64,000 nt of DNA from assembly GCF_006088715.1 (NCBI RefSeq), contig NZ_CP030771.1, forward strand, positions 9,794,001 to 9,858,000. Direction: 5' to 3'. Position 1 is the first letter of the stretch; every line of letters starts with the position of its first letter. Shown piece by piece: positions 13,413 to 58,619 of this stretch. The notes under the pieces were generated by a model that was given only the letters and a program-made list of their open reading frames with translations, was not told where the DNA came from and made no database searches. The DNA comes from Streptomyces sp. YIM 121038 (GTDB taxonomy: Bacteria > Actinomycetota > Actinomycetes > Streptomycetales > Streptomycetaceae). A program made the position numbers and the translations under genes.

Positions 13413-13435
13413 GGCGCGATGCCGAAGAGGTGACA

Positions 13436-13454
13436 CGCGTGCGGGCGGCACGCG
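13436..13454. terminator. Short hairpin between fasciclin and litR genes
   Basis: CGCGTGC (13436-13442) pairs with GCACGCG (13448-13454) around a 5-nt loop, in the 69-bp gap between convergent genes. This is a likely bidirectional terminator. The gap also repeats the gene end: GATGCCGAAGAAGTGAGGCGC is followed at once by a near-copy ending in GAGGTGA. Confidence 0.4.
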
Positions 13455-15399: not shown

Positions 15400-15433
15400 G
15401 AACAGGTCAGCTACTGTCGCGTGCATACCCCAA

Positions 15434-15479
15434 GCATTGGCCAGGGCATTGGCCGTTAACCCGACATTCGCCGTTAACC
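15434..15479. repeat. Two pairs of short direct repeats, possible operators
   Basis: GCATTGGCC occurs at 15434-15442 and 15446-15454 (12-bp period). GCCGTTAACC occurs at 15452-15461 and 15470-15479 (18-bp period); each of these contains the palindrome GTTAAC. The group lies 35-80 bp after the sigma gene stop. Clustered direct repeats in a promoter-bearing gap suggest regulator binding sites. Confidence 0.5.
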
Positions 15480-16174: not shown

Positions 16175-16195
16175 CCGCCCTTCGCCGAAGGGCGG
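16175..16195. promoter_or_regulatory. 10-bp perfect inverted repeat in the cluster leader
   Basis: CCGCCCTTCG (16175-16184) and CGAAGGGCGG (16186-16195) flank a single central C. As RNA it would form an 8-bp stem with a 5-nt loop. No T-run follows. It lies 318 bp before the P450 start, so an operator or 5'-leader hairpin is as likely as a terminator. Confidence 0.4.
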
Positions 16196-16512
16196 ACGGA
16201 AAGCCGAAGTGCGATGGGGCGGACGTGTTGAGCCAGGCCAAGCGGCCCCGGTGACGGCGGAGAGCAGGCGTGCGGGTCGGTGAGGACACCACCGCCCGCC
16301 GCTAGGGCCTGCCCGCCCTCCGTGACGGACGCTCCATCGGCCTGCCCGCACACCGCGTTCACCGCGTGGGGCCCTTCGGCGCGCGCGGGGACATGCGGCC
16401 CGCATCCGGCCACGGTGGCCCCGCCCCGCGTGCCGGAGTCGACTCAGCCCGAGCGACCACCCCACCCCCTGCTTTCGTCGTGCCTCCGCATCCCCCCACC
16501 CAAGGGAGAGAA

Positions 16513-17733
16513 GTGACCAGCAATTCGACCAACAGCTCCTCGACGCAGGGCCACTTACTGTTCGACGCGCTGACCGAACAGTGGCGATCCCTGCGCGAGG
16601 CCGGCCCGGTCCGCCACGACGAGGCGCAGGGGGTGTGGCACGTCGTAAACCACGAAGGGGTTGCCGCCGTGCTCGCCGACTCGGCGACGTACTCCTCGGA
16701 CATGACCCCGATCGCCCCCTCCCAAGAGGACTTCGAAGCCTTCAGGCAGGGCAACTTCGTCGGCATGGACCCGCCCGAGCACCGCAAGTTCCGCACCCTG
16801 GTGAGCCAGGCGTTCACCCCGCGCGTGGTGCACGGGCTCGAACCGCGCATCGAAGCCGTGTGCGCCCGTCTGCTCGACGCGGTGGCCGACCACGACCGGA
16901 TCGACATGGTCGACGCGCTGGCCTACCCCCTGCCCATCATCGTGATCGCCGAACTCCTCGGCATCCCCACCGAGGACCACCCGCTGTTCCAGGAGTGGGC
17001 GGCCACCCTCTTCGGCGGCGACCAGCTCGGCGAGTCGCCCGACATGGCCGACCTGGAGCGCGCCCTCGAAGCCATCGCCCCGACCGTGCGCGAGATGAAC
17101 GGCTACGTCCTGGACCACATCCGCCGCCGCCGCGCCGAGCCGGGCGACGACCTCATCAGCAAGCTCATCGCCGCCGAGGTCGACGGAGTCCGCCTGGAGG
17201 ACCAGGAGATGGTCGGGTTCGTCGCCCTGCTCCTCGTGGCCGGACACATCACCACCACCGCCCTCCTGGGCAACGCCCTGGTCGCCTTCGACCGCAACCC
17301 CGGCACGCTCACCGCCCTGCGCGCCGACCCCGCACGGCTGCCCGACGCCATCGAGGAAGTGCTGCGCTGGCTGCCGCCCTTCCCCGAACTGGGTCGGCGC
17401 GTCACCCGCCCCGTGGTCCTCGGCGGTCACGAACTGCCCACCAACACCCTGGTGATGGCCCACCTGGGCGCCGCCAACCGCGACCCCGACCGCTTCACCA
17501 AGCCGGACGTCCTGGACGTGACCCGCAGCCCGAATCCCCATCTGACCTTCGGCCACGGCATCCACTTCTGCTTCGGCGCGCCCCTGGCCCGCCTGGAGGC
17601 CCGCATCGCGCTGCGGATGCTGCTCGACCGCTTCCGTGACCTCTCCGTCTCCTCCTACGGCGACGTCACGTACCAGAACCCGGCCGTCCTCGTCGGCGTC
17701 CGCCACCTGCCGGTCGACGTCGTCAGACCGTAA
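16513..17733 (+). CDS. Cytochrome P450 monooxygenase of the NRPS cluster
   Basis: 406 residues, normal for soluble bacterial P450s, which need separate ferredoxin partners. Visible motifs are the oxygen-activating I-helix LLVAGHITTTALL, the K-helix ExxR in AIEEVLRW, and the heme-cysteine loop FGHGIHFCFGAPLARLEAR. The GTG at 16513 follows AGGGAGAG; the frame open above it is low-complexity leader. It is the first gene of the peptide operon, so it probably oxidises the peptide or a carrier-bound residue; the site cannot be told. Codon 15 (16555-16557) is TTA, the bldA-dependent leucine codon. No ferredoxin gene is adjacent. Confidence 0.9.
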   Translation: MTSNSTNSSSTQGHLLFDALTEQWRSLREAGPVRHDEAQGVWHVVNHEGVAAVLADSATYSSDMTPIAPSQEDFEAFRQGNFVGMDPPEHRKFRTLVSQAFTPRVVHGLEPRIEAVCARLLDAVADHDRIDMVDALAYPLPIIVIAELLGIPTEDHPLFQEWAATLFGGDQLGESPDMADLERALEAIAPTVREMNGYVLDHIRRRRAEPGDDLISKLIAAEVDGVRLEDQEMVGFVALLLVAGHITTTALLGNALVAFDRNPGTLTALRADPARLPDAIEEVLRWLPPFPELGRRVTRPVVLGGHELPTNTLVMAHLGAANRDPDRFTKPDVLDVTRSPNPHLTFGHGIHFCFGAPLARLEARIALRMLLDRFRDLSVSSYGDVTYQNPAVLVGVRHLPVDVVRP

Positions 17734-17818
17734 TCACCCGCGCCCTCACGCCCGGCCCGGAGCCCGCCGGCCGTCGCGCCACCCGCCCTGAGCCACTGTT
17801 AACGGGAGCCACTTCGTC

Positions 17819-19168
17819 ATGCCGTACACCACCGCCGCCACGATCATCGAGCGGTCGCCGTCCCGCTTAAGCGAAGTCCTGCAAGATCGTCTCGATGTGC
17901 TCGCGCGCACCCACCGGGTCCCCGGTGCCCACCTGGCCGTGGACACCGGGACGGACGTGGTCAGCGTGCACACCGGCACCACCGACGCCTCCACCGGCAC
18001 TCCGTTCACCGCGGACACGGCCGTTCCCCTGGGGTCCGTCACCAAGGTCTACACCGCCGCCGCCGTGATGCTCCTCGCCGACGACGGCGATCTGGAGCCC
18101 GACGACCCCGCGGCCTCGTTCATACCCGAGCTACGCGCGTTACCTGAGGTAACGATACGTCACCTGCTCAGCCACACCGCCGGGCTGCCCACAGGACCCG
18201 ACTCGGACACCGCCGCCGGGACGACCGCCCCGCGCTATCTGGCGGAGGTCTGCGCCGCCCGGGACGCGCTGTTCGCGCCCGGAGCCGGATTCTCGTACTC
18301 CAACGCCGGTTACATCGCCGCCGGACGGATCATCGAGTCGGTCACCGGCATGACCTGGAAGGAGGCCGTCCGCGCCCTGCTCCTGGAGCCCCTCGGCACC
18401 ACGGCCGCCTACCTCGGCGAGCCCGCCCCCGCCCGCACGGCCGCCGTCGGCCACGCGCTGAACACCGCGACCGGACAACCGCGCCCGGCCCGGCAGAACC
18501 TCGCCGCCGTCGAGGCACCGGCGGGCGCCCTGCTGGCCAGCGCCCTCGACCTGGCGGCCCTCGGAAGATCCCTGACAGGCCGGTCCGCCGTGCTGCCGCC
18601 CGCCGTCGCGGCGCTCATGCGGACCCCCGTGCCCGGCGCCGACCCGGGGGTCCTCGCGGACGCCTGGGGCCTGGGCGTCGCGCTGTTCAAGGAGGACGGC
18701 CGCTGGTGGTGCGGCCACGACGGGAACGCCCAGGGCACCTCCTGCCACCTGCGGGCCGAGCCCGACAGCGGCGTGGTCGTCGCCTTCACCGGCAACGCCG
18801 GCGGCGCCACCGCCCTGTGGCAGGACCTCGCCGACGACCTCACCCGGCTCACCGGCGTACGCGTGCCGACCGCTCCGGCACCCGCACAGCGGGGCGAACC
18901 CATCGCCCTCCCCGAGTGCGCCGGCACCTACCGCAACGGCGCCCTCGAATACCGGATCACTCTCGACGTCGACGGCTCCCCAGCGCTGTCCGTGGACGGC
19001 GACCTCCCGCTGCCCCTGGTCTGCTACGCCGACCTGACGTGCGACCTGGTCGACCCGGCCACCGGTCGCCGCGAGCCCGGCGGACGCTTCCACCGCGACG
19101 CCGCCACCGGCACCGTCGACCGCGTGCAGATCTCGGGCCGCACCGCCCGCCGCACCCGCACCTCCTGA
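17819..19168 (+). CDS. Penicillin-binding-protein-type thioesterase (SurE-like), peptide-release cyclase
   Basis: 449 residues of the serine beta-lactamase/PBP-like fold. The three active-site motifs are present: SxxK in LGSVTKVYTAAAVM (about residue 73), YxN in FSYSNAGYIAAGR, and HxG in GHDGNAQGTSCHL. A beta-rich tail of about 95 residues (LPECAGTYRNGALEYRITLDV onward) matches the lipocalin-like C-terminal domain of SurE. In surugamide-type clusters such stand-alone enzymes take the chain from the last carrier protein and cyclise it head to tail, preferring a D residue at the C-terminus. Both NRPSs here lack a TE and the last module ends in an epimerase, which fits. Two TTA codons lie at 17867-17869 and 18140-18142. 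An unrelated esterase is the alternative, but the context argues against it. Confidence 0.85.
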   Translation: MPYTTAATIIERSPSRLSEVLQDRLDVLARTHRVPGAHLAVDTGTDVVSVHTGTTDASTGTPFTADTAVPLGSVTKVYTAAAVMLLADDGDLEPDDPAASFIPELRALPEVTIRHLLSHTAGLPTGPDSDTAAGTTAPRYLAEVCAARDALFAPGAGFSYSNAGYIAAGRIIESVTGMTWKEAVRALLLEPLGTTAAYLGEPAPARTAAVGHALNTATGQPRPARQNLAAVEAPAGALLASALDLAALGRSLTGRSAVLPPAVAALMRTPVPGADPGVLADAWGLGVALFKEDGRWWCGHDGNAQGTSCHLRAEPDSGVVVAFTGNAGGATALWQDLADDLTRLTGVRVPTAPAPAQRGEPIALPECAGTYRNGALEYRITLDVDGSPALSVDGDLPLPLVCYADLTCDLVDPATGRREPGGRFHRDAATGTVDRVQISGRTARRTRTS

Positions 19169-19270
19169 GCACACCCAGCTCCGGCGTGAGCACGTCCCGG
19201 CCCCGCCCTGCCGGGAGCAACCCGTGCCCGCGCGCACCCGCACCGTCCCCGCGCCGAAGGACATCCCCCC

Positions 19271-22200
19271 ATGACGGACCTGCATGACAAGCCCACCCCG
19301 GCGACCAACCCGCCGTCGGCCGACCACGCCGCCACCGGCGGCGGAAGCGGGAGCTCCGGTGCGCACCCGCACCCGTCGCTCGGTGAGCTGTTCGCCGCAT
19401 GGGTGGCCCGGACACCCGACGCGCCCGCGGTCACCGACGGCCGACGCACCTGGTCCTACCGGGAGTTGGCACAGCGGGCCGACCGCCTCGCCGCCGACCT
19501 CGTACGGCGCGGGGCCGGACCGGATCGCACGGTGGCGCTCGTCCTGCCGCGATCAATGGAACTGATCGCGGCAGAGATCGCCGTGACACGTGCTAGTGCC
19601 GCCTTCCTGCCCGTGGACCCGGGCTACCCCGCCGAGCGGCGCGCGCTGATGCTGGCCGACGCCGCACCGGTGGTGGTCCTCGACGACCCGGCCCGGGTCC
19701 GCGCCGTCCTCGACGACGCGGCCGGTCCCGTGCCCGACCGGTGGCCCGAGCCGGTGGGCGCCGACCACGCGGCGTACGTCATCTACACCTCCGGCTCCAC
19801 CGGCACCCCCAAGGGCGTGACCGTCACCCACCGGGGCATCGCGGCCTTCAGCCGCGGCTGCGCCGAGCAGTACGCCGTGCGGCCCGGCGACCGGATCCTG
19901 CAGTTCTCCTCGCCCAGCTTCGACGCCGCCGTCCTCGAACTGTGCAGCTCCGTCCTGTCCGGAGCCACCCTCGTGGTGCCGCCGCACGGACCGTGGCTCG
20001 GCGACGAACTCGCCGCCGTCCTCGACGAGCACCGCATCACCCACGCGCTGATCCCGCCCGCCGCCCTCGCCACCCTGCCCGACCCGGCGCACGGCGCCGC
20101 GGGCAGCCACCTGAGCAACCTGATCGTAGGAGCGGAGGCCTGCCCGCCCACCCTCGTCGACCGCTGGGCCCCCGGCCGCCGGATGATCAACTCCTACGGC
20201 CCCACCGAAGCGACGGTCGTCGCCTCCTGGACCGGCCCCCTGACCGCGGGCAGCGGAACACCGAGCATCGGCACCCCCCTGTCCGGCACCCAGGTACACG
20301 TCCTCGACGCGGCGCTGCGCCCCGTCGCGCCCGGCGCCGACGGCGAGCTGTACGTGGGCGGGGACGGCGTGGCCCGCGGCTACCACGGCCGCCCCGGCCT
20401 GACCGCCACCCGCTTCGTCGCCAGCCCCTTCGGCCCGCCCGGCGCTCGGCTCTACCGCACCGGCGACCGCGCCCGCTGGAACGGCGAAGGAGAGCTGGAG
20501 TTCCTCGGCCGCGCCGACCGCCAGGTCAAGGTCCGCGGCTTCCGCATCGAACCCGGCGAGATCGAGGCCGTGCTCCTGCGCCACCCCGGCGTGCGCGAGG
20601 CCGTCGTCGTGGTGCGCGAGGACGACCCGGGACGGCGGCGGCTCGTCGGCTACGTCACGCCCACCGACGCCGACCGCGCCCCGGAGCCCGCCGCGCTGCG
20701 CGCGGCGACGGCCACCGCCCTGCCCGCGCACATGGTCCCGGCCGCCGTCGTCGTCCTGGACGAACTCCCGCTCACCAGTCACCACAAGGTGGACCACCGC
20801 GCCCTGCCCGCCCCCGTCCGCGAGACCGCCGACGGCTGGACCCGGCCGCGCACCCCGCAGGAGGAGGCACTGGCCGCCATCTGGGCCGAGGTCCTCGCCG
20901 TCGACGCCGTGGGCGCCGACGACGACTTCTTCGACCTGGGCGGCGACTCCGTCCTCGCCGCCCGGACGCTGTCACGGATCACCGAGGAACTGGGCGTGCG
21001 CCTCGCGGTGCGGGACGTGTTCACCGCCCGGACCGTCGCCGCTCTCGCCCCGCTCCTCGGCGACCCGTCCGCCACCGCACCGCCCGAGCCGATACCGCCC
21101 GCCCCGCGCGACGGCCCGCTGCCCCTGTCCAGCGCGCAGCAGCGGCTGTGGTTCCTGGACGACCTCACCCAAGGCGGCACGGAGTACAACACCGGCGTGG
21201 CGCTGCGGCTGCGCGGCGACCTCGACGGCGCGGCCCTGCGCCGCGCCCTGGACCGGCTCGCCGCCCGCCACGACGCGCTGCGCACCACGTTCGCCACGGT
21301 CGCCGGACAGGGCGTGCAGCGCGTCAGCGCGACGGCCGAACTGCCCCTGCGCACGGCCGACGTGGCGCACGTGCCCGCCGCCCGGCGCGCCGAGGTCGCC
21401 GAACGGCTCCTCACCGTGGAGCTCGGCCGCGCCTTCGACCTGGCCACGGGCCCCCTCACCCGGGCGCTCCTCATCCGCCTCACCGACGGGGAACACCTGC
21501 TGCTCCTGGCCCAGCACCACATCGTCACCGACGGCTGGTCGGTGGGCCTGCTCACCCGCGAACTGGCCGCGCTCTACCACGCGGAGGCCACCGGAGCGCC
21601 CGACGGCCTGCCCGCGCCGACGGTGCAGTACCCGGACTTCGCGGTGTGGGAGCGGCGGCAGCGCTCCTCCGGCACCGACAGCGACGACCTCGCGTACTGG
21701 AAGCGGCACCTGACGGGCATGCAGCAGCTCGACCTGCCCACCGACCGGCCCCGGCCGCCGGTGCGCACGACCGTCGGCGACGCCCACCGCCACCCGATCC
21801 CGGCGGACCTCGTCGAGCGGCTGCGGCAGCTGGCCGCGGGCCGCGGCACGACGTTGTTCACCCTGTTCGCCGCGGCGGCGGCCGTGCTGTTCTCCCGGTA
21901 CTCCGGCCAGCGGGACGTGGCCTTCGGCACCGTCACCAACGGGCGCGGGCGCCGCGACCTGGAGGACGTGACAGGCTTCTTCGCCAACACCGTGGTGCTG
22001 CGCGAGGAAGTCGACGACACCACCACCGTCGGCGCGTTCGTGGAGCGCATGCGCGCGACCGTCCTGGACGCCTTCGCCCACGACGGGGTGCCCTTCGACC
22101 GCGTCGTCGAGGAACTGGCACCGCCCCGCGACCCCAGCCGTACGCCGCTGGTGCAGGCGCTCGTGGTCCAGCAGACGGCCCCCGCCCATCCGCCGCGGGC

Positions 22201-25200
22201 CGGCGCGCTGCGCGTCGAGGAGCACCCGCTGCCGCGCCCGGCCTCCCGCTTCGACCTGGTCCTTGAGTTCGCGCCGCGCCCGGACGGCGGCCGTGAGCTG
22301 ACCGTCGAGTTCAACACCGATCTGTTCGACGTGGACACGGTCGCCCGGATGAGCCGCCATCTGCACCGCCTCCTGGAGGACATGGCGGACGGCCCGCACC
22401 GGACGCTGGCCGAGCTGCCCCTGCTCCTGGAGGGCGAGCGGCGCACCCTCCTGGAGACCTGGAACCCGCCCGCGCGCACCGGGGACGACGACACCGCGCG
22501 CACCCTGCCGGCGCTCTTCGAGGCCCAGGTGGCCCGCACCCCCGAGCACACCGCCGTGGACTGCGGCACCACACGCCTCGACTACACCGAGGTGAACCGG
22601 CGAGCCAACCGCATCGCCCGGCAGCTCGTGGCCCGCGGCGCCGGGCCCGAGACGCTCGTGGCCCTGTGCCTGCCCCGCACCGCCGACCTGGTCCCGGCCC
22701 TGTGGGGCGTCCTGAAGTCCGGCGCGGGCTATCTGCCCGTCGACCCCGGCTACCCCGCCGAGCGCATCCGCTTCATGCTCGCCGACGCCCAACCGGGCCT
22801 CGTCGTCGCGGGCCGCGAGACCGCGGGCGCGCTGCCCGCGGACTGCGAGCCGCTGATCCTGGAGGACTGCCTGACCGACGGCGCGGACCTGCCGGGGGAC
22901 ACGGACCTGACGGCGGCGGACCTGGCACGCCCCCTGGTCCCCGACCATCCCGCGTACGTCATCTACACCTCGGGGTCGACCGGCCGCCCCAAGGGCGTCG
23001 TGGTCGCCCACCGCAGCGTGGCGGCGCTCGCCGAGTGGGTGGCGGAGCGGTTCGGGCCCGAGCGCCTCGCCCATGTGATCGCCTCGACGTCGCTCAACTT
23101 CGACGTGTCCGTGTTCGAGTTGATCTGCCCCCTGCTCGCGGGCGGCAGCATCGAGGTGGTCGCGGACCTCGCCGCCCTCGCCGAGGCCCCCGACCTGCGC
23201 AGCGCCGGGCTCGTCAGCGGTGTGCCGTCCGTGATCGCGCGGCTGCTCACCGAGGGCCACACGGCGATCGCCTCGGACACGTTCGTCCTGGCCGGGGAGG
23301 CGCTGCCCGCGCAGACCGTGCGCGACCTTCGGCGGGCCATGCCGTTCTGCGAAGTGGCCAACATATACGGCCCGACCGAGGCCACGGTCTACGCCACCGC
23401 CTGGTTCGCCGACGACACCGAACCCGACCAGGCCCCGCCGATCGGCAGGCCCGTGGCGCGCACCCGCGCCTACGTCCTGGACCACCTGCTGCGCCCGCAG
23501 CCCCCGGGCGTGACGGGCGAGCTCTACCTCGGCGGCGGCGGCCTCGCCCGCGGCTATCTGCGCCGCCCCGGGCTGACCGCGACCCGCTTCCTCGCCGACC
23601 CCTTCGGCGCCCCCGGGGACCGCATGTACCGCACCGGTGACCTGGTGCGGTGGACCCAGGCGGGCGAACTGGAGTACCTGGGCCGCACCGACCAGCAGGT
23701 CAAGGTGCGCGGCTTCCGCATCGAACTGGGCGAGGTGGAGGAGGCCCTGCTGCGCTGCGAGGGCGTGGCGCAGGCGGCCGCCGCCGCCCGCGAGAGCGAA
23801 GGACACCGGCGCCTGGTCGGCTACGTCGTGCCCGCCCCGGGCAAGCGGGTGGACCCGGACGCGGTGCGCCGCGAACTCGGCCGCGCCCTGCCCGACTACC
23901 TGGTCCCCGCCGTCGTCGTCGGGCTGAGCGCGCTGCCCCTGAACCCCAACGGCAAGCTGGACCGCGACCGGCTGCCCGACCCCGGGCCGCTCGCGCGCAC
24001 CGCCCGCCACGTGCCGCCGCGCACGCCCACCGAACGGCTCCTCGCCGGGATCTGGGCGGACGTCCTGCACGTGGAGCGGGTCGGGGCGGACGACAACTTC
24101 TTCGCGCTCGGCGGCGACTCCATCCTCAGCATCCAAGTCGTCGCCCGGGCCCGGCAGGCGGGCCTGACGGTCACCTCCCGCGATGTGTACCGGCACCAGA
24201 CGGTGGCCGACCTCGCCCGCTGCGCGGACGCCGCGGAAGGCCGCAAGGCCACCGCCCCCGTCCAGGTGGCGGCCACCGGACCGGCGCCGCTGACGCCCAT
24301 CCAGCACTGGCTGTTCGACAGCGCCGGAGACCGCTCCGGCCACTTCTCCCAGACCCTGTCGGCCCAGCTGCGCGGGGCGGTCGACGCGGCAGCTCTTGAG
24401 GACGCGCTCAACGACCTGGTCGCCCACCACGACGCGCTGCGCTCCCACTTCGTGACCGAGGGCGCCGCAGGTCCCGGCGGTACCGGCCCCGCCACCGCCC
24501 GGTGGCGCATCGGCGAACGGACGCCGCGCCTGCGCCTGGCACGCCACACGGGCCCCGACGCCGACGCGCCGCACCTGGGCCCCTTCGACCTGAGCGAGGG
24601 CCCGCTGCTGCGCGCCGTCCTGCACGAGCGGGGCGCGGGGCTGCGGCCCGTCCTGCACCTGGCCGTCCACCACCTCGTGGTCGACGGCGTCTCCTGGCGC
24701 GTCCTGCTCGAAGACCTCGACCTGGCCTACCGCGCCCGCCGCGAGGGCCGCGACGCGACGGCGGCCCTGCCCGCCAAGTCCTCGCCGCTGCGCCACTGGG
24801 CACAGCGCCTGGCCACGCACGCGGCCGACGGAGGCTTCGCCGACGAGACGGCGTACTGGACCCGAGCCCTCGCGGGCGCCGAGGCGGCCCTGCCCACGGA
24901 CGGGGCGGGCCCCAACACCTACGCCTCGGCCCGCTCGGTGACCGTACGCCTCACCCCCGAGCACACCACCGCGCTGCTGCGCACGCTGCCCGACACCTAC
25001 CGCACCCGGGTCAACGACGTGCTCCTGAGCGCGCTCGGACGCGTGCTGTGCGCCTGGACCGGCCACGAGCGGGTCCTGGTGGACGTCGAGGGGCACGGGC
25101 GCGAGGAGCTGTTCGCCGACGTCGACACCAGCCGGACCGTCGGCTGGTTCACCACCCGCCACCCCGTCGCGCTCGCCGTCCCGCCCGACGCCGACTGGGA

Positions 25201-28200
25201 CGCCGTACTCAAGCAGGTCAAGGAGCAGCTGCGCGCGGTACCCCGGCACGGCCTGGGCCACGACGCGCTGCGCCACCTGACCGGGCCCGGCACGGCGCCC
25301 CCGGCGCCCGCCGCGCAGGTCAGCTTCAACTACCTGGGCCGTTTCGGGCTCCCGGACGCGCCGGACGGCCTGTACGGCGAACCGTTCCGCCCCCTCGAAC
25401 TGGACGCCGACCCGCTGTCCGCGCGCCCGCACCCGCTGGAGGTCGTGGGGCAGCTGGACGGCGACGCACTGGAGTTCACCTGGTTCTACTCCGACGCGCT
25501 GCACCACGAGGCGACCGTCGCGGATCTCGCCGCGGGGTTCGCGGACGCGCTCGCCGGGATCGCCCGGCACGCGGCCCGGCCCGGCACCGGCGGCCGCACC
25601 CCGTCGGACTTCCCGCTGGCGCGGCTCGACCAGACGGCCGTGGACCGCCTCGTGGGCGACGACCCCGGCGCGGTCGAGGACGTCCACGCGCTCACGCCCA
25701 CCCAGGCGGGGATGCTCTTCCACGGCCTGTCGCAGGACGACCAGAGCGTGTACTTCCAGCAGGTGTCGTTCGTCCTGGACGGCGTGCCCGATCCCGCCGC
25801 CCTCGCGGCGGCCTGGCAGCACGTGACGGACCGCACCCCGGTGCTCCGCTCCCGCGCGGTGTGGCAGGACGTGCCCGAACCGCTCCTCGTGGTGCGGCGC
25901 CACGCGACCGTGCCGGTCACGCACCTGGACTGGCGCCGGCTGACCGACGACGAGCGGGGCGGCGCGCCGCGGGACCTGCTCGACCGGGACCGCGAGCGCG
26001 GCGTCGACCTGGCGTGCGCCCCGCTCCAGCGCCTGGCCCTGGTCCGGCTCTCCGACACCTCCGTACGCGTGGTGTGGTCCTTCCACCATCTGATCCTGGA
26101 CGGCTGGAGCCTGTTCCAGGTCCTGTCCGACGTGTTCGCCCGCCACGCACGGCCGTCCGGCTCCGAGGACGGGGGCGACCCGCTGCCCGTGCGGCGCCCC
26201 TTCAGCGACTACGTGGCCTGGCTGCGCGACCGCGACGACGACCGGGCCGAGCGGCACTGGCGCGACCGCCTCGCCGGCCTGACCGAGGCCACCGCGCTGC
26301 CCTACGACCGCGAACCGCGCGAGACCCACCACGCGGAGTCCACCGAGGCGGTCCGCGTCACGGTGCCGCAGGCCACGACGCGCGCCCTGGAGGACCTGGC
26401 CAAGGCGGCGGGCCTGACCCTGAACACCCTGGTCCAGGGCGCCTGGGCGCTCCTCCTGAGCCGCCTTGCGGGCAGGGACGAGGTCGTCTTCGGCACCACC
26501 GTCTCCGGCCGCCCGCCCGAGCTGCCGGGCGCCGACTCCATCACCGGCCTGTTCATCACGACCCTGCCCACCCGCGTCCGGGTGGCGCGCGACGGCACCC
26601 TCGCCGACTGGCTGGGCGCCCTCCAGTACGACCAGAGCGAGGACCGCCGCTTCGACCACGTGCCGCTCACACGGATGAAGGCCCTCACCGAACTCCCCGA
26701 GCGGGCCGCCCTGTTCGACAGCATCGTCGTCTTCGAGAACTACCCCGTCGACGACGACCTCGCCGCCGCCCACGGGCTGCGCCTGAGCGACCTCGACGGC
26801 ATCGAGACCACCAACTACCCGCTGAGCCTGGTCGCCTATCCCGGTACGGAACTCGGCCTGCGCCTCGGCTACGACCCCGCGCTCCTCGACGCCGCCACGG
26901 TCGCCCGGATGGGCGAGTACCTCACCGTGCTCTTCGAGGGCATGGCCGCGGGACCCGAGCGCCCGCCCGCGCTGCTGCCGCTGCTCACGCCCGCCCGCCG
27001 CCGCCAGGTCGTCGACGAGTGGAACGACACCGCCACCGCCGTCCCCGAGGAGACGGTCGCGCGGCTGTGGACGGCACAGGCGCGCCGCACGCCCGACGCC
27101 GTCGCCCTGGAGGCCGGTGCCGACCGGCTCACCTACCGGGACCTGGACGTCCGGGCCACGGCACTCGCCGCCCGGCTCGCCGCCCGCGGCGTCACGGCCG
27201 AAGTGCCGGTCGGCGTCCTCATGGACCGCTCGGTCGGCCTGGTCGTCGTCCAGCTCGCGCTCGCCCTCGGCGGAGGCGTCTACGTCCCCCTCGACGGCCG
27301 GGCGCCGAGCGAGCGGCTGCGGCGCATGCTCGCCGAGGTCGGCGCGGACCTCGTCCTGACGGACGCCGAGTGGGAGCGCACGGCGCGGGACGTGCTGCCC
27401 GACGGAACCGTGCTGCGGCCCGACCGGGAACCCGAGGGCGAAGCGCCGGACGCTCCCGACGCCCCGGCCGTGCACCCCGACTCCGTCCAGTACGTCATGT
27501 TCACCTCCGGCTCCACCGGCACGCCCAAGGGCGTCGCCGTGCGCCACCGGGACGTCGCCGCCCTCGCGTCGGACCGCGCCTTCGCCGGGCACGACCGCGT
27601 CCTCGTGCACTCCCCGCACGCCTTCGACGCCTCCACGTACGAGCTGTGGGTGCCCCTGCTGCGGGGCGGAACGGCCGTCCTCGCCCCGCCCGGGGACGTC
27701 GAGGCCGCCGTCGTCCGGAACGCGATCACCGAGCGCGGCGTGCGGTTCCTGTGGCTCACCGCGGGCCTGTTCCGCCTCCTCGCGCAGGAGGACCCCACCT
27801 GCCTGCGCGGCGCGCGGGAGGTGTGGACCGGGGGCGAGGCCGTGCCGGGCGCCGTGGTGCGCCGCGTCCTCGACGCCTGCCCCGACCTCACCGTCGTCGA
27901 CGGCTACGGCCCCACCGAGACCACCACCTTCGCGACCCGGCGCCCCTTCCGCGCCGGTGACCCGCTGCCCCCGGTGCTGCCCATCGGGCGCCCGCTCGAC
28001 AACACCCGGGTGTACGTCCTCGACGCCGCGCTCCAGCCCCAACCACCCGGCGTGCCGGGGGAGTTGTACGTCGCGGGGGCCGGGCTCGCCCGGGGCTACA
28101 CCGGGCGGTCGGGGGCGACCGCCGCCCGCTATGTGGCCGATCCGTTCGGTCCGCCCGGCTCCCGCATGTACCGCACCGGCGACGTCGTGCGCTTCGGCGG

Positions 28201-31200
28201 CGACGGCGAACTGCACTTCGTGGGGCGCGCGGACGACCAGATCAAGCTGCGCGGGTTCCGCGTCGAGCCCGCCGAGATCGAGGCCCGCCTCACCGCGCAC
28301 GCGGGTGTCGCCGAGGTCGTCGTGTCCGTGTGCGAGCACGCCGGGCGCAAGCGCCTGGCCGCCCACGTCGTGCCCGCCCCCGCGGCGGCCGCGCCGACCG
28401 TGCGCGAACTGCGCGCCCACGTGGCCGCCGAACTGCCCGACTACATGGTCCCCGCCGCCTTCGTGACGGTGCCGGAGCTGCCGCTGACCGCCAACGGCAA
28501 GGTGGACCGGAGCAGACTGCCCGCACCGGACTGGTCGGCGGCGGGCGACACCGCCTACCGGCCGCCCCGCACCGAGGCCGAGCGCGTCCTCAGCGGCATC
28601 TGGGCGGACCTCCTGGGCGTGGACCGCGTCGGCGCCGACGACAACTTCTTCACCCTCGGCGGCGACTCGATCCTCAGCATCCAGGTCGTCTCACGGGCCC
28701 GCGCCGCCGGGCTCGGGCTCACCCCGCGCGACCTGTTCCGCCACCCCACCGTGGCCGCCCTCGCCGCGGCCAGCGGCTCGGCCGGGGCCGTCGCCGGAAC
28801 CGGCCCCGTGGCCGGCGAGGTGCCGCTCACGCCCATCCAGCACTGGTTCCTCGACCCTGGGCCGCGCCGCCCCGAGGTCTTCGACCAGTGCCTGCTCGTC
28901 GAGACGGCCGGGGACGTCGACGCGGACGCCCTGCGCCGCGCCCTCGCGGCCCTGTGGTCCCACCACGACGCCCTGCGCGCCCGGTTCGTCCAGGGCGACG
29001 ACGGGGCCTGGCGGCAGCACTGCCCCGGCCCGGACGAGGCGGCACCGGACCTTCTGGAGATCGTGGACCTGAGCGGCCCGGACGCCGAAGCGGCCGAAGC
29101 CGCCGAGGCCCGCGCCACCGCCGAGGCGCACGCCGCGTTCCGCCTCGCCACCGGCCCGCTGCTGAACGCCCTTCTGTTCACCGGCACGCGACCGCGCCTG
29201 CTCCTGACCGTCCACCACCTGGTCGTCGACGGGGTGTCCTGGCGCATCCTCCTGGAGGACCTGGACACCGCCTATCAGCAGGCGCGTACGGGCGAGCCCG
29301 TACGGCTTCCGGAGCGCACCACGTCGGTCCAGGAGTGGGCCCGCCGCCTGCGTGCCCGCACCGCGTCCGGCGGCTTCGCCGACCAGCGCGCCCACTGGGA
29401 GGACGTGGCACGGCACTGCGCCGCGCCCCTGCCCCTGGACACCGGCGCGGCACCGGACGGCACCACCATGGCCGACGTGCGCGCGGTCACCGTACGCCTG
29501 GACCGGGAGCGCACCGACGACCTGCTGCGCAAGGTGCCCGGCGCCTACCGCACCCGCATCGACGACGTGCTCCTGACCGCGCTCGGCCGTACCGTCGCCG
29601 ACTGGATCGAACGTTCTACCGTCGCTGTCGCTCTGGAGGGCCACGGCCGCGAGGACCAGCTCTTCGACGACGTCGACCTGTCCCGCACGGTCGGCTGGTT
29701 CACCAGCCTGTACCCCGTCGCCCTGCACGTGCCGGACACGGACTGGGGGACCGCCCTGAAGTCCGTCAAGGAGCAGCTGCGCGCGGTGCCGGAGCGGGGC
29801 ATCGGCCATGGCGCGCTCACGCACCTCGCCGGGGACGACCGGCTCACCGCCGCGCCGACGCCCGGCATCAGCTTCAACTACCTGGGCCGGTTCGACTGGT
29901 CGGCCGACGGCGGCGGCGCCCTGGTGCGCGGCGTGCCCGGCGGCCTCGGCGGCGCCGACGCGCCCGACGCGGCGCGCCCGCACCTCCTCGACGTGATCGC
30001 CCGCGTGGAGGGCGGGGAGCTGGAGATCACCTGGCACTACAGCCACACCCTGCACCACGAGGAGACCGTCGCGGGCCTCGCCGACGGCATGCTGCGGGCG
30101 CTCACCGAGCTCGTAGCCCACTGCTGCCGCGAGGACGCCGGGGGCCGCACGCCCTCGGACTTCCCGCTGGCCCGCGTGGACCAGGAGGCCCTGGACCGCG
30201 TCGTGGGCGACGGCCGCGCGGTCGAGGACCTGTACCCGCTGACGCCGATGCAGGCGGGCATGCTGTTCCACAGCCTCATGGATCCCGACGCGCGGACGTA
30301 CGTCAACCAGGTCCAGCTGGTGCTGCGCGGCGTCACCGACCCGGGCGCCCTGGCCGAGGCGTGGCAGCGGACCGCCGACGCCAACGCCGTGCTGCGCACC
30401 GGCCTGGTGTGGCAGGAGACCTCCGAGCCGCTCCAGGCCGTGCGGCACCGGGCCACCGTGCCCGTCACCCACCACGACTGGACCGGATGGCCCGCCGACC
30501 GGTGCGCGCGGGAGATGGACCGGCTGCTCGACGCGGACCGGGACGCCGGGATCGACCTGGGCACCGCGCCCCTGATGCGCCTCACCCTGATCCGTCTGGC
30601 GCCGGACCGCGTACGGATGGTGTGGACGTTCCACCACGTCCTGCTCGACGGGTGGAGCGCGGCCCAGGTCTTCGACGAGGTGTGCGAGCGGTACGCGGCG
30701 CTGACCGCCGGACGCCGCCCGGAGATCGCCGACCGCGCGCCCTTCCGCGACTACCTGGAGTGGCTGTCGCGGCAGGACGCCGCCCGGTCGGAGCGGTACT
30801 GGCGCGAGACCCTCGCCGGGTTCTCCGCCCCGACCGAACTCCCCAGGGACCGGCGGCCCACCGAGGCCCACCGCGCGTCGTCCTCCGGAACCGTCGGCGT
30901 GGAGCTCGACGCCGGGACGTCGGCGCGGCTGCGGGAGACGGCACAGCGGGCCGGACTGACCGTCAACACCATGGTGCAGGGCGCCTGGGCGCTGCTCCTG
31001 TCGCGGTACGGCGGCGGGGACGACGTCGTGTTCGGCACCACCGTCTCCGGGCGCCCCGCCGAACTGCCCGGAGTGACCTCGATGGTCGGGGTGTTCATCA
31101 ACACCCTGCCCACCCGCGTCCGGATCGACGGCGGTCGCGGCCTCCTGGAGTGGCTGCGCGAGCTCCAGGCCGCCCAGTCGGAGTCCCGCAGGCACGACTT

Positions 31201-34200
31201 CGTCTCCCTCGCCCAGCTCCAGACGTGGAGCGAGGTGCCCGGCGGCACGAACCTCTTCGACAGCATCGTGGTCTTCGAGAACTACCCGTTCGACGAGGGC
31301 GCCCTGGCCCGGCACGGCCTGGCCATCGAGCAGGAACGCGACGTGGAGCCGACCAACTACCCGCTCAACGTGGTGGTCGCCCCCGGGGACGTCCTGTCGG
31401 TCATCCTGGACTACGACCCCGGTCACTTCGAGGAGCCGACCGCGCGTTCCCTCGCGGCGCGGCTGCTGCACACGCTGCGCCTCCTGGCCGACGCCTCGGA
31501 CGACATCCGCCTGGACGCGGTGGACATCCTGGCGCCGGAGGAGCGCGAACGGCTCCTGCGGGGGCCCGCGCGCCCCGCACTGGCCCCGGTCGCGCCGGAG
31601 GTGCTGCCCGTCCTGGTCGAGGCCGCCGTGGACCGTACGCCCGAGGCGACGGCCCTCGTCGGACCGGGCCTCACCCTGTCCTTCGCCGAGGCCGAGGTGC
31701 GCGCGAACCGGGTGGCGCACGGGTTGATCGCCCGCGGTGTGGGCCCGGGCGATCTGGTGGCCCTGGTGCTGCCCCGCTCCGTGGACATGGTCCTCGCGCA
31801 GCTCGGCGTGGCCAAGGCCGGTGCGGCCTTCGTGCCGGTGGATCCGGGGTATCCGGCGGAGCGGGTGGCGTTGATGCTGCGGGACGCGGCGCCCGCGGTG
31901 ACACTCGACGCGGAGCAGGTCGCCGAACTGCTCGCGGCACAGGGCGTACCGGAGCACCGGCCGACGGAGGCGGACCGGGTCCGTCCGCTGCGTCTGGAGG
32001 ATCCGGCGTATGTGATCTATACGTCGGGTTCCACGGGGACGCCCAAGGGTGTCGTGGTGACGCATCGCGGTCTTGCGGGTTTCTCGGCTGCTGAGGCGGC
32101 GCACTATGAAGTGGCGCCGGGGGACCGGGTGCTGGCGTTCGCCACGCCGAGCTTCGACGCTTCGGTGCTGGAGTTGTGCATGTCCCTGCCGCTCGGCGCG
32201 AGCCTGGTCGTGCCCGCACCCGGGCCACTGCTCGGCGCGGAACTCGCGGAGGTGCTCCGGACGGAGCGCATCACGCACACGCTGCTGCCTCCGCCCGCGC
32301 TGTCCACCCTGCCACCGGAGACCCCGGGCACCCTGCCGGACCTGAAGACCCTCACGGTCGGCGCCGACGCCTGTGGTCCGGAACTGGTGGCCGCCTGGGC
32401 GCCGCACCACCGTCTGGTCAACTCCTACGGGCCCACCGAGGCGACGGTGGTGGCCACTTGGTCGGCGCCGTTGACCGTGGAGGGGACCGCGCCGCCCATC
32501 GGGCGGCGGCTGCCGGAGACGGGTGTGTATGTTCTGGACTCCCGGCTGCGGCCGGTTCCGGACGGGGTGGCGGGGGAGTTGTGGCTGAGTGGTCCGGCTC
32601 TGGCTCGTGGTTATCTGAACCGTCCGGGTCTTACGGCGTCGCGGTTCACGGCCGATCCGTTCGGTCCGCCCGGCTCGCGGATGTACCGCACCGGTGACCT
32701 GGTGCGCCGCGACGCCCACGGCGAGCTGCACTACCTGGGCCGCACCGACCACCAGGTGAAGGTGCGCGGCTTCCGCGTCGAGCTGGGTGAGCTGGAGGCC
32801 GCCCTCGCCGGGCACCCGGACGTGGCCGCGGCCGCCGCCCGCGTGTCGGAGCGCGACGGCCACCGCCGCCTCGTGGCGTACGCCGTACCGAGGGGGAGCG
32901 AAGCCCCCGACCCCGCGGCCCTGCGCGACTTCCTCGCCCGCACCCTCCCCGACCACCTGGTCCCCGCGGCCGTCGTACCGCTGGAGCGACTGCCGCTCGG
33001 CGCCAGCGGCAAGCTCGACCGGAACGCACTGCCCGAACCCGTCTGGTCGGCTCCGGCCGACGGCGGCGGCGTCCCGCCCCGCACCGACACGGAGAAGGCG
33101 CTCGCCGCGATCTGGTCCGAGGTCCTCGGCGTGCCCGACGTGGGCGCGCAGGACAACTACTTCACGCTCGGCGGGGACTCCATCCTCGGCATCCAGATCG
33201 TCGCCGCGGCCCGCCGCGCCGGATTCGCGCTGACGCCCAGGCACCTGTTCCGCCACCAGACGATCGCCGAGCTGGCCGCCGCCGCTGAGGACCTGCCCGC
33301 CGCGGGAACGACGGCCGAACAGGGCGCCGTCGTCGGCGAGGCACCGCTCACGCCCGTCCAGCACCTGCTGTTCGACACCCTCACCGGCGACCCGGCACGC
33401 CTCACCCAGGCCGTCGCCCACCACCTCGCCAGCGACACCGACGAGGCCGCGCTGCGCGCCGCCCTCGCCGCCGTCCACGACCACCACGACGCGCTGCGCC
33501 TGCGCTACCCGGCACACGCCGACGGGGCCCGCCGCCAGTACGGCACCGCGCCGGGCGCACCGGTCCACCTGGAGGTGCACGACCTGCCGGGGGAGGTGCC
33601 CGCCGCCCTCGTCGACGAGCTGTGCGCGGGCTTCGACCTGGACACCGGGCCGCTCCTGAAGGCCGCGCTGTGCCGCTCCGGCGACGAGCGGCGGCCCGTC
33701 CTGGTGCTCGCCGCGCACCACCTGGTCGTGGACGCGGTGTCCTGGCACTTGATCCTGGAGGACCTCGACACCGCCTACCGGGCCCTGCGCGCGGGGAACC
33801 CGCCGGACCTCGGCCCGAAGACGACCTCCTTCCAGGCGTGGGCCCGCCGCCTCGCCGCGCACACCGAGGCCGGAGCCTTCGACGGCGAGCTCGACCACTG
33901 GCGGAACGTGCCCGACGGCCACGCCCTGCCGACCGATCTCGCCGGGGCCAACACCGCCGCGAGCGAGGAGTCGGTGACGGTGGGCCTCGACGCCGAGGAG
34001 ACCCGCCGCCTCCTCCAGGACGTACCGGGCGTCTACCGCACCCGCGTCAACGACGTGCTGCTGTACGCCCTCGGCCGGGTCCTGGCGCGCTGGACGGGCC
34101 GGGACCGGGTGGCCGTGACCCTGGAGGGCCACGGCCGCGAGGAGCTCTTCGACGACGTCGACCTCTCCCGCACCGTCGGCTGGTTCACCAGCGTGTTCCC

Positions 34201-37200
34201 CGTCGCGCTCGACGTACCGCGCGACGCGGACACCGCCACCGCGCTGAAGTCCGTCAAGGAGGGCCTGCGCGCGGTGCCCCACGGCGGCATCGGCTACGGC
34301 GCCCTGCGCCATCTGCACCCGACCGCGGGCGCGGGACTGCCCGCGCTGCCGCAGATCTCCTTCAACTACCTGGGCCAGCAGGACCGGAACACCACCGGAG
34401 ACCTGCTGCACGCGCCCCACGGCGACCTGACGGGCGGCATGGACACGGCCGCGGACCGCCCGCACCTGCTCGACGTCATCGGGCGCGTGACGGACAAGCG
34501 CCTGGAGTTCACCTGGTCGTACTCGCGCGACGTGCACCGCGGTGACACCGTCGCCCGGCTCGCGGCCGAGCTCACCGACGAACTGCGGGCCCTCGTGCGG
34601 CACTGCGCCGAACCCGGCGCCGGGGGCCGCACCCCGTCGGACTTCCCGCTGGCCCCGCTGGACCAGGCCGCCGTCGACCGCCTGGTCGGCACCGGACGCG
34701 ACGTCGTGGACCTCTACCCGCTCACCCCCACCCAGGCGGGCATGCTCGTCCACGGCATGGACGAGCCCGCCGAGGGGCTGTACGTCGAGCAGATCACGTT
34801 CGTCATGGACGGCGTGCCCGACGCCCGCGTGCTCGCCGCCGCGTGGCAGCACGTCGTGGACCGCACCCCCGTGCTGCGCACCGCCGTCGTCCTCGGCGGG
34901 GCGCCCGTCCCGCTCCAGGCGGTGCGGCGCGCCGTCACCGTGCCCGTCACCGAGCACGACTGGAGCTCTCTCGCGCCCGAGGCGCGCGCGGCGGAGCTGG
35001 AACGGCTGCTCGCCGAGGACAAGGCCCGCGGCATCGACCTGGACCGCGTGCCGCTGCTGCGCGTCGCCCTGATCCGCCTCACCCCGGACGAGGTGCGCGT
35101 GGTGTGGACCTTCCACCACGCCCTGCTCGACGGGTGGAGCGTCTTCCACGTCCTCGGGGACGTCGTGGCCGCTCACGCCGCCCTCTCCCGGGGCGAGGAG
35201 CCGCGGCTGCCCGAGCGCAGGCCGTTCGCGGACTACGCCGCCTGGCTCGCGGCCCGCGACACCACACGGGCCGCGGAGCACTGGACGGGCGCGCTCGCCG
35301 ACCTGACCGCACCGACCCCGCTGCCCTACGACCGCAGGCCCGCCCCGGGCGCCCCGTCCCGCTCCGGCAGCTGGCTCGCGGAGTACCTGGAGGAGGCCGA
35401 GACGGACGGCCTCGCGGACTACGCCCGGCGCCACCGGCTGACCCTCAACACCGTGGTGCAGGGCGCCTGGGCGCTGCTGCTGTCCCGCTGGAGCGGCGAG
35501 CGGGACGTGTGCTTCGGCACGACCGTCTCCGGGCGGCCCGCGGACATGCCGGGCGCCGACACCATCGCCGGCCTGTTCATCACCACCCTGCCCGCCCGGG
35601 TCACCGTGGACGGCGCCGCCCCGTGCGCCGCGTGGCTGCGCGAGACGCAGGCCGCGCGGGCCGAGGACCGCCGCTTCGACCACGTACCGCTCACCGACCT
35701 CCAGGCCGCCAGCGGACTGCCCGCGGGAACCCCGCTGTTCGACAGCCTGCTGGTGTTCGAGAACTATCCGGTCGGCGACGACACCGCGGGCGCGCACGGC
35801 GTCCAGGTCCGCGACCTCGACGCCCACGAGTCCACCAACTACCCGCTGACCGTGGTGATCCTGCCGGGCAGCCGGATGGGTGTCGTCGTCGGCTACGACC
35901 CCCGCTACTTCGAGGAGGCCACGGCACGCTCCCTCGCGGACCAGCTTGTCCACACCCTGCGTGCCCTGGTCGCCGCGCCGGACGGGACGTCCCTGGACGC
36001 GGTGGACGCCCTGGCGCCGGAGGAGCGCGAACGGCTGCTGCGGGGGCCCGCGCGCCCCGCACTGGCCCCGGTCGTACCGGAGGTGCTGCCCGTCCTGGTC
36101 GAGGCCGCCGTGGACCGTACGCCCGAGGCGACGGCCCTCGTCGGACCGGGCCTCACCCTGTCCTTCGCCGAGGCCGAGGTGCGCGCGAACCGGGTGGCGC
36201 ACCAGCTGATCGCCCGCGGTGTGGGCCCGGGCGATCTGGTGGCCCTGGTGCTGCCCCGCTCCGTGGACATGGTCCTCGCGCAGCTCGGCGTGGCCAAGGC
36301 CGGTGCGGCCTTCGTGCCGGTGGATCCGGGGTATCCGGCGGAGCGGGTGGCGTTGATGCTGCGGGACGCGGCGCCCGCGGTGACACTCGACGCGGAGCAG
36401 GTCGCCGAACTGCTCGCGGCACAGGGCGTACCGGAGCACCGGCCGACGGAGGCGGACCGGGTCCGTCCGCTGCGTCTGGATGACCCGGCGTATGTGATCT
36501 ATACGTCGGGTTCCACGGGGACGCCCAAGGGTGTCGTGGTGACGCATCGCGGTCTTGCGGGTTTCTCGGCTGCTGAGGCGGCGCACTATGAAGTGGCGCC
36601 GGGGGACCGGGTGCTGGCGTTCGCCACGCCGAGCTTCGACGCTTCGGTGCTGGAGTTGTGCATGTCCCTGCCGCTCGGCGCGAGCCTGGTCGTGCCCGCA
36701 CCCGGGCCACTGCTCGGCGCCGAACTGGCCGAGGTCCTGCGCGCCGAACGCATCACGCACACCCTGCTGCCCCCGGCCGCGCTCGCCACCTTGCCGCCGG
36801 ACACACCCGGCACCCTGCCCGACCTGAAGACCCTCACGGTCGGCGCCGACGCGTGCGGCGCTGACCTGGTGGCCCGCTGGGCGCCGCACCACCGCCTGGT
36901 CAACTCCTACGGGCCCACCGAAGCGACCGTGGTGGCCACTTGGTCGGCGCCCCTGACAGCGGACGGCGTCGCGCCGCCCATCGGGCGGCGGCTGCCGGAC
37001 ACCGGGGTGTACGTCCTGGATTCCCGGCTGCGGCCGGTCCCGGACGGGGTGGCGGGGGAGTTGTGGCTGAGTGGTCTGGCCCTGGCCCGTGGCTATCTGA
37101 ACCGTCCCGGGCTCACCGCGTCGCGGTTCACGGCCGATCCGTTCGGTCCGCCCGGCTCGCGGATGTACCGCACCGGCGACCTGGTGCGCCGCGACGCCCA

Positions 37201-37840: not shown

Positions 37841-37853
37841 GGACTGCCAGACC

Positions 37854-57806
<19,953 letters not shown>

Positions 57807-57815
57807 CCCCACGCT

Positions 57816-57854
57816 CCGCCCCGGGGCACCCGCACCGCCGGTGCCCCGGGGCGG
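57816..57854. promoter_or_regulatory. 15-bp stem-loop between the second NRPS gene and mbtH
   Basis: CCGCCCCGGGGCACC (57816-57830) pairs perfectly with 57840-57854 around a 9-nt loop. It lies 10 nt after the NRPS stop and 31 nt before the mbtH start. No T-run follows. It could be a partial terminator, an RNA-processing or stabilising hairpin, or a leader element setting mbtH level. Confidence 0.75.
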
Positions 57855-57885
57855 CGACACCGCACCCACGAGAGGAGACCACACC

Positions 57886-58092
57886 ATGGACGAGAACACC
57901 CGCTACCAGGTGCTGCGCAACGACGAGGACCAGTACTCGCTGTGGCCCATAGACGTCGACGTCCCGGCGGGCTGGCACCGCACGGACAAGGAGGGCACCG
58001 AAGCCGAGTGCTCCGCCTACGTCGACCAGATCTGGACCGACATGCGTCCCCGCAGCCTGCGCGAGCGAATGGAACGAGAGGCATCCCGATGA
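57886..58092 (+). CDS. mbtH: MbtH-family NRPS accessory protein
   Basis: 68 residues. It carries the family signature: YQVLRNDEDQYSLWPIDVDVPAGWH, then DQIWTDMRPRSLRERM, including the conserved tryptophans. MbtH proteins bind adenylation domains and are often required for their folding or activity. I set the start at 57886, 9 nt after GGAG (57873-57876); the in-frame GTG at 57841 lies inside the stem-loop. It sits directly downstream of the two synthetases and overlaps the next gene by 4 bp (ATGA). Confidence 0.95.
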   Translation: MDENTRYQVLRNDEDQYSLWPIDVDVPAGWHRTDKEGTEAECSAYVDQIWTDMRPRSLRERMEREASR

Positions 58093-58619
58093 CGCTGCCG
58101 ACGCCCACCACGCCACCCCTGTGCACCGAGCGCTTGGACTTCACGCCCTACCGCCCCGAGGACGAGGACCACTTCGTCGCCCTCCTGCGCAACGAGGTGG
58201 TCTGCCGCTGGATGGGCCAGGACCAGGTTCCCGAGCCCGACCTGCGCAACCTGTTCAAGGCGATCTTCACCGATGTGTATCCCCAACGCCTCTTCGACGT
58301 ATGGGGCGTCTGGCACGACGGCACGTACATCGGCCATGCGGAGTGCAAGAAGACCGGCAATGTCGACGGCCACGAACTGATCACCGCGCTGCTTCCGGAG
58401 TACTGGGGGAAGGGATTCGGCACCGAGGCCGTGTACGGCCTGATGCGGCACGCCGCCGAGAACCTCGGCCTCAAGGAGGTGTACGGCATGGTCGGCGCGG
58501 AGAACGCCGCGAGCCTCGCGCTGTGCCGGCGCCTGAACGCCCAGCACGTCCGTGACGTCGTGGGCGACGACGGCACCGTGACCAAGATGATCCTGATCCC
58601 GCTCACCGACCTGATCTGA
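58089..58619 (+). CDS. GNAT-family N-acetyltransferase (RimJ/RimL-like)
   Basis: 176 residues. The GNAT fold is clear: CTERLDFTPYRPEDEDHFVALL, the acetyl-CoA pyrophosphate-binding motif region LLPEYWGKGFGTEAVYGLMRHA, then LGLKEVYGMVGAENAASLALCRRL. It should transfer an acyl group from CoA to an amine. The 4-bp overlap with mbtH places it in the peptide operon, so it could acylate a side-chain amine of the product or precursor, or give self-resistance by modifying it. A cyclic product has no free N-terminus, so a side chain is the likelier target if the peptide is the substrate. Confidence 0.87.
   Translation: MTLPTPTTPPLCTERLDFTPYRPEDEDHFVALLRNEVVCRWMGQDQVPEPDLRNLFKAIFTDVYPQRLFDVWGVWHDGTYIGHAECKKTGNVDGHELITALLPEYWGKGFGTEAVYGLMRHAAENLGLKEVYGMVGAENAASLALCRRLNAQHVRDVVGDDGTVTKMILIPLTDLI

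Follow-up and report, generated by a model that had tools for sequence, protein, structure and literature searches.

A six-gene Streptomyces cassette predicted to make a cyclic decapeptide closed by a stand-alone PBP-type thioesterase

Known systems and the YIM 121038 locus

The known chemistry of penicillin-binding protein (PBP)-type thioesterases (TEs) is head-to-tail macrolactamization of peptides, natively between an L-configured N-terminus and a D-configured C-terminus (PMC11735501). Here we describe a locus with such an enzyme in the 11.1-Mb genome of Streptomyces sp. YIM 121038. The window, i.e., the whole 64,000-nucleotide stretch analyzed (contig NZ_CP030771.1, positions 9,794,001 to 9,858,000), carries on its + strand at 16513-58619 a six-gene cassette: a cytochrome P450, a stand-alone PBP-type TE, two nonribosomal peptide synthetases (NRPS 1 and NRPS 2), an MbtH-like protein, and a GCN5-related N-acetyltransferase (GNAT). 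We propose, with a probability of roughly 0.83, that this cassette makes a head-to-tail cyclic decapeptide that is closed by the stand-alone TE.

SurE, the TE of the surugamide system, cyclizes the surugamide F decapeptide to cyclosurugamide F and accepts a size series up to the equivalent of 23 residues (PMC11735501). The surugamide system resembles the window in its trans-acting PBP-type TE, its joining of an L N-terminus to a D C-terminus, and its decapeptide ring. However, SurE serves both an octapeptide and a decapeptide line, whereas the TE here falls in a separate clade and the window contains one line. A sequence-only reading of this DNA had considered a ten-residue ring unusually large for a PBP-type TE; that argument fails because SurE closes rings of ten residues and more. 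The ring-closure chemistry is already known, ten-residue rings included. The same enzyme family includes Ulm16 (ulleungmycin) and DsaJ/WolJ (desotamide/wollamide), desotamide being a hexapeptide. Ulleungmycin is also a hexapeptide, and PenA (pentaminomycin), a further member, is specialized for penta- and tetrapeptides (PMC11735501), unlike the predicted role of the window TE.

By published description, Streptomyces sp. H-KF8 has a comparable cluster. Its NRPS 1.8 comprises two NRPSs with ten adenylation (A) and six epimerization (E) domains, and its predicted product is a cyclic decapeptide with the plan X-dAla-dVal-dAla-Trp-dOrn-X-dOrn-Val-dTyr, of which eight of ten residues are supported by matrix-assisted laser desorption/ionization time-of-flight tandem mass spectrometry (PMC10788856). 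Like the window, it opens with a stand-alone A domain and has a TE adjoining its two NRPSs; the numbers of A and E domains are the same, and the D positions (2, 3, 4, 6, 8, and 10) agree exactly. Val at positions 3 and 9 is arrived at independently in our clusters, and most relatives have like codes at positions 2 and 4 and at 6 and 8. Position 4 differs, being D-Ala in H-KF8 and served by an aromatic-type A4 code in the window. H-KF8 is absent from the 69 named loci described below. The locus had been called orphan on sequence alone. This holds to the extent that searches of open papers turned up no isolated product with a solved structure, and none recognizable by name or composition (MIBiG was outside the scope of the search), but it needs amending in that the predicted H-KF8 cluster is published and TEs of this family are common.

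The assembly line and its thioesterase

The six genes are as follows.

16513..17733, + strand: cytochrome P450, 406 amino acids from a GTG at 16513 (PF00067, 5.1e-29, longer reading frame)
17819..19168, + strand: stand-alone PBP-type TE, 449 amino acids (PF00144, E 4.9e-55)
19271..37840, + strand: NRPS 1, 6189 amino acids, modules 1-5
37854..57806, + strand: NRPS 2, 6650 amino acids, modules 6-10, terminal E domain and no TE
57886..58092, + strand: MbtH-like protein, 68 amino acids (PF03621, 70.6 bits, above the cut-off; contig 9851889-9852026)
58089..58619, + strand: GNAT acetyltransferase, 176 amino acids (PF13302, 1.5e-18, longer reading frame)

NRPS 1 has the domain order A-T, C-A-T-E, C-A-T-E, C-A-T-E, C-A-T and NRPS 2 the order C-A-T-E, C-A-T, C-A-T-E, C-A-T, C-A-T-E, where T is the carrier (thiolation) and C the condensation domain; E domains thus occupy modules 2, 3, 4, 6, 8, and 10. 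In the module list below, C(L) and C(D) are L- and D-type C domains, and codes are those read from the A domains.

19271..21121, + strand: module 1, A-T with no starter C; DALLIGSVV, probably aromatic
21125..25687, + strand: module 2, C(L)-A-T-E; DVFSVAIVY, putatively Ala, only via H-KF8 position 2
25691..30235, + strand: module 3, C(D)-A-T-E; DAYWWGGTF, Val according to PMC9113097
30239..34717, + strand: module 4, C(D)-A-T-E; DALLTGSVV
34721..37840, + strand: module 5, C(D)-A-T; DALLTGSVV, putatively aromatic, Trp via H-KF8 position 5
38037..42543, + strand: module 6, C(L)-A-T-E; putatively Orn, only via H-KF8
42549..45749, + strand: module 7, C(D)-A-T; DFWNIGMVH, Thr
45753..50270, + strand: module 8, C(L)-A-T-E; putatively Orn, only via H-KF8
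50274..53368, + strand: module 9, C(D)-A-T; DAFWWGGTF, Val-type
53370..57806, + strand: module 10, C(L)-A-T-E; DALLIGSVV, probably aromatic

Domain and motif searches agree with the sequence-only description of ten modules on two proteins that start with A-T, end with E, and carry no TE. The NRPS 2 protein stops directly after its last E domain (which begins at about 56469), and Pfam detected no thioesterase in its last 800 residues. The expected motifs are intact in the window (GG[DH]S in 10/10 T, HHxxxDGxS in 9/9 C, and HHxxxDxxSW in 6/6 E domains), and the same patterns occur in relatives (150/150 E, 99/99 L-type C, 121/123 D-type C, and 246/249 T domains). The start motif of a C domain (D-type or L-type) reflects the configuration of the upstream residue. 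All nine C domains of the window fit, with D-type motifs after each E and L-type motifs after E-less modules; given that this rule is general background and that the models for the relatives were built from the window, the agreement is a consistency check rather than independent evidence. Domain logic, as distinct from chemistry, gives the stereochemical plan L-D-D-D-L-D-L-D-L-D, with an L amine and a D carboxyl as the free ends. Twenty-four of 25 relatives in a first set and four of five more distant ones repeat this order, so the arrangement is not due to chance.

The TE is most similar in sequence, among solved chains, to SurE (6ksu, E 5e-62) and Ulm16 (8fek, 1.3e-53). It carries the motifs S73-V-T-K76, Y160-S-N162, and H300-D-G302, and S73, K76, Y160, N162, H300, G302, and also G236 do not vary across 28 aligned sequences. 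Its predicted model is of moderate confidence (mean predicted local distance difference test, 76.6; predicted template modeling [TM] score, 0.79). Foldseek ranked SurE first (445 aligned columns) and Ulm16 next, near full length and with the C-terminal beta domain included, at TM scores of about 0.64-0.72. This lipocalin-like domain is predicted to have eight strands (residues 369 to 448). The SurE-like TE with SxxK, YxN, and HxG motifs and a lipocalin-like tail that had been noted upstream of the synthetases is borne out by the PF00144 match, the motif residues, and the predicted fold. In the sequence match to 6ksu, G236 pairs with chain residue 255, which we read as SurE G235 on the assumption of a 20-residue tag. 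In SurE, G235 is the pocket residue that decides between a C-terminal D-residue with a side chain and glycine (PMC11735501).

In a tree of 27 TE sequences the orthologues form one clade (100/100) apart from SurE and from DsaJ and Ulm16, which group together (the tree holds neither WolJ nor PenA). It leaves out six of the rows of an earlier 33-row tree, L014 and L019 among them; in that tree the orthologue clade had values of 87/83, and rows from L009 and L012 were very long-branched, most likely because of the wrong strand. As in the SurE family, a stand-alone PF00144 protein stands beside an NRPS that lacks a cis TE and that, by domain logic, places an L residue first and a D residue last. 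Release by the TE in trans, with closure of a D C-terminus onto an L N-terminus, already predicted in the sequence-only reading, is well supported by sequence, predicted fold, motifs, module logic, and the conserved pairing of TE and NRPS.

We predict that module 1 loads an L-amino acid directly and that the ten modules act in order, with epimerization at positions 2, 3, 4, 6, 8, and 10. The chain would pass from the last carrier domain to Ser73 of the TE, and the amine of L-residue 1 would attack the carbonyl of D-residue 10, closing the ring. The P450 and GNAT may then tailor the peptide.

Predicted residues and alternative products

Codes were read at the usual nine A-domain positions in 26 clusters (the window and 25 relatives). 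Module 1 has DALLIGS[IV]V in all 26, and module 2 has DVFSVAxVY in 23, the other three being truncated. Module 3 has DAYWWGGTF in 22 clusters and DAYFWGV[TA]F in four; module 4 has DVFSVA[IV]VY in 20, DALLTGSVV in five, and one unreadable code. Module 5 has DALL[IVT]GSVV in 24/26 (its code is not readable in G061), and modules 9 and 10 are likewise near constant; the tallies for modules 5 to 10 include one misplaced row because part of NRPS 1 in G065 is unreadable, which puts its modules one place out of register from module 5 onward. Two related codes occur at modules 6 and 8, and their third letter is alignment dependent, code position 239 being E in one reading and L or W in another.

DAYWWGGTFK and DAYFWGVTFK are listed for Val and DFWNVGMVHK for Thr (PMC9113097), and of 12 codes searched for in papers one (DAYWWGGTF, Val) gave an exact match and the other 11 gave none. 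According to the PARAS paper, a pocket large enough for Trp results where residues are small and hydrophobic, a description to which DALLIGSVV conforms loosely; as a source on this cluster that paper was set aside, as it deals with tryptopeptin instead (PMC13126170). No answer came from the accessible text of the DeepAden paper (PMC13335487) or the H-KF8 genome paper (PMC5312570). The authors of the H-KF8 plan considered that X1 may not be an amino acid (PMC10788856). We take it as an aromatic amino acid, because the module 1 code is nearly the same as those of modules 5 and 10 in all 26 clusters. The predicted core for the window is cyclo(Aro1 - D-Ala2 - D-Val3 - D-Aro4 - Aro5 - D-Orn6 - Thr7 - D-Orn8 - Val9 - D-Aro10), where Aro is Trp or Tyr.

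Several points weigh against this proposal. The Ala and Orn assignments are borrowed by analogy from H-KF8 and hence provide no independent check, and the putative aromatic assignments rest on codes for which the papers gave no exact match. In most clusters the same code stands at modules 5 and 10, yet H-KF8 has Trp and dTyr at these positions. H-KF8 itself is likened by its published description, in whose accessible text the TE type, P450, MbtH, and GNAT are unnamed (PMC10788856). SurE and Ulm16 are just 34-36% identical to the TE in the structural alignments, and to our knowledge neither the window nor any cluster retrieved has a product mass or an enzyme assay to its name. The upstream P450 and GNAT were not found in five clusters of a more distant set. 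Finally, a TE acting in trans is conceivable, because PF00975 hits occur about 29 kb downstream of the GNAT gene.

The alternative that survives best, although we consider it improbable, is that the TE mainly hydrolyzes its substrate, making a linear decapeptide the main product. Linear surugamide F is named beside cyclosurugamide F, PenA hydrolyzes a tetrapeptide more than it cyclizes it (PMC11735501), and the window TE is long-branched and belongs to a clade of its own. However, the native chemistry of the family is macrolactamization, and the ends that this requires are, by domain logic, those that the assembly line supplies.

We think it still less probable that another enzyme releases the chain, e.g., a TE from contig 9.88-9.92 Mb, and that the PBP-like protein serves in resistance or as a D-peptidase. 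That region holds PF00975 and MbtH hits, and D-peptidases and ClbP are among the weaker solved relatives of the PBP-like protein. The nearest relatives are, however, SurE and Ulm16, the extra C-terminal beta domain is present, and the gene precedes NRPS 1 in 30/30 relatives fetched whole; on its nearest relatives and this constant place, the resistance or D-peptidase role was set aside. None of the genome's 41 PF00975 matches lies in the window, the nearest being 23 kb past its end, and Pfam and PF00975 searches found no cis TE or other TE within the window. The several PF00975 hits and one MbtH hit at contig 9881201-9921580 suggest another biosynthetic locus. Least probable is a line that is not colinear, with a module skipped or reused or chains joined by the TE to give another ring size: three relatives in which A2 is mostly missing would, if active, have to skip the module or load it through another A domain, but the motifs of all ten window modules are intact, the published H-KF8 consensus is a decapeptide (PMC10788856), and the SurE size series gave monomeric rings only (PMC11735501).

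Distribution, tailoring genes, and A-domain exchange

A TE orthologue (E at most 1e-140) occurs in 43 of 392 sampled Streptomyces genomes, its own included, or about one in nine. A species-level contig set gave 69 TE loci, 62-92% identical, in records named Streptomyces, Streptantibioticus, Streptacidiphilus, Kitasatospora, and Catenulispora. Of the 68 loci that could be assessed, 61 have a P450 directly upstream of the TE; NRPS 1 begins after the TE in 65/69, and the remaining four contigs break off within about 0.6 kb. A 1.07-Mb plasmid bears one copy of the cluster (Streptomyces nigrescens HEK616 SNP1; L101).

The full domain order is present in the 24 of 25 first-set relatives mentioned above, all read through the whole cassette, with double model hits counted once, split frames taken in sequence, and truncated A2 counted as A; S. 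aureocirculatus (G065) falls outside the 24 because the end of its NRPS 1 is unreadable. MbtH and GNAT are each present in 25/25 of this set and the P450 in 19/25. G085 (L172-L174) retains a 56-residue P450 remnant upstream of the TE, at about 2733-2900 of the joined cluster, which suggests loss of the gene. From the more distant TE set (ten genomes, 58-61% identity) five were fetched (G434, G120, G410, G147, and G231; L181-L195). Four of the five share this order, with almost identical codes, and the frames of G231 are broken, bringing the ten-module order to 28 of the 30 relatives fetched whole. Three of the five have a different P450-like gene downstream. The neighborhood of G434 contains an S-adenosylmethionine methyltransferase (PF04672), a P450, a TetR gene, and a copper amine oxidase. 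Because the distant set keeps the NRPS plan without the upstream P450 or GNAT, the core is the TE, both NRPSs, and MbtH, and the P450 and GNAT look like accessory tailoring genes.

The P450 is a probable tailoring enzyme. Its first three solved matches are CYP113A1 (7ayx), 4e2p, and 4ggv, the last two of which we take to be the himastatin enzymes HmtN and HmtT. The only solved match of the GNAT at E 1e-5 is the bleomycin acetyltransferase 2zw4 (E 5.8e-8). It most plausibly acetylates a basic side chain, because a head-to-tail ring has no free N-terminus. Acyl-surugamide A2 carries an acetyl-lysine (PMC11012974), a precedent for acetylation of basic side chains, as these provide the free amines of a ring. 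According to the accessible text of that paper no acetyltransferase was found in the surugamide cluster, in contrast to the GNAT encoded here. In six of the 25 relatives, L027 (G016) among them, the GNAT is followed, in the regions retrieved, by a membrane-protein-like open reading frame (major facilitator superfamily-like by eye), to which the window has no match. No NCBIfam family matched the MbtH-like protein. The span of the cassette from P450 to GNAT, 16513-58619, stands as the sequence-only reading gave it, but that reading had overlooked the MbtH gene (57886-58092) and misplaced the GNAT start: the start at 58089, which overlaps the MbtH stop, is most likely the true one, not 57942. A promoter and terminator scan of 15000-19300 detected nothing. 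The flanks (6152-13451 and 60706-62385) encode a photolyase, an NAD-binding/DUF2867 protein, an RskA-type anti-sigma factor, a molybdopterin oxidoreductase, and cytochrome oxidase subunit I, and look unrelated to the cluster.

What is new here is that the A4 core has been overwritten by an A5-type core in the clade of the window.

31499..32758, + strand: A4 core replaced by an A5-type core (from module 4 versus module 5 DNA identity)

Compared in 90-base steps, the DNA of modules 4 and 5 is 84-100% identical inside this block and 46-81% identical outside it. The block runs from near the beginning of the A domain to just past motif A8. Five of the 25 clusters with a readable module 4 (the window, G061, G062, G066, and G067) have the DALLTGSVV code at A4. 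In G062, G066, and G067 the block stops at the same position as in the window and its start lies within about 30 residues of the window's, with more differences inside. In an A-domain tree of 69 sequences, the four exchanged A4s tested join the module 5 group (98/98), as sister to all module 5 rows rather than nested within their own module 5, and the other A4s lie beside A2. Judging from the codes, the exchange should change D-Ala4 to D-aromatic4. A2 is largely lost, with C2, T2, and E2 kept, in G042 (L037-L040), G039 (L041-L044), and G081 (L169-L171); the spacing from C2 to T2 is 266 residues in C. pinistramenti, 249 in C. pinisilvae, and 120 in Streptomyces sp. CB02056, versus 526 in the window. 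In these lines A4 may load the carrier, the module may be skipped, or the line may be dead.

Taken together, a decapeptide-ring family of unsolved structure closed by its own PBP-type TE clade, a working A4 core swap, and loading of both carriers by A4, the second Ala-type domain, where A2 is lost form a tentative picture, to which we give somewhat less than even odds. If it is true, an A5-type core ending at the hinge between core and subdomain was accepted by the C, T, and E domains of module 4 and by the line downstream. The A4 replacement and the A2 losses offer natural, testable examples of NRPS reprogramming, and the TE clade may supply new ring-closing biocatalysts acting natively on ten residues. 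The TE is common and its relatives bear general names only (e.g., serine hydrolase, among the best 120 of 401), so the isolation of one product would explain many genomes, and the conserved plan makes the mass of that product roughly predictable. Overall, clusters of this family are widespread, the papers searched give no solved structure for them, and they record clear events of natural reprogramming.

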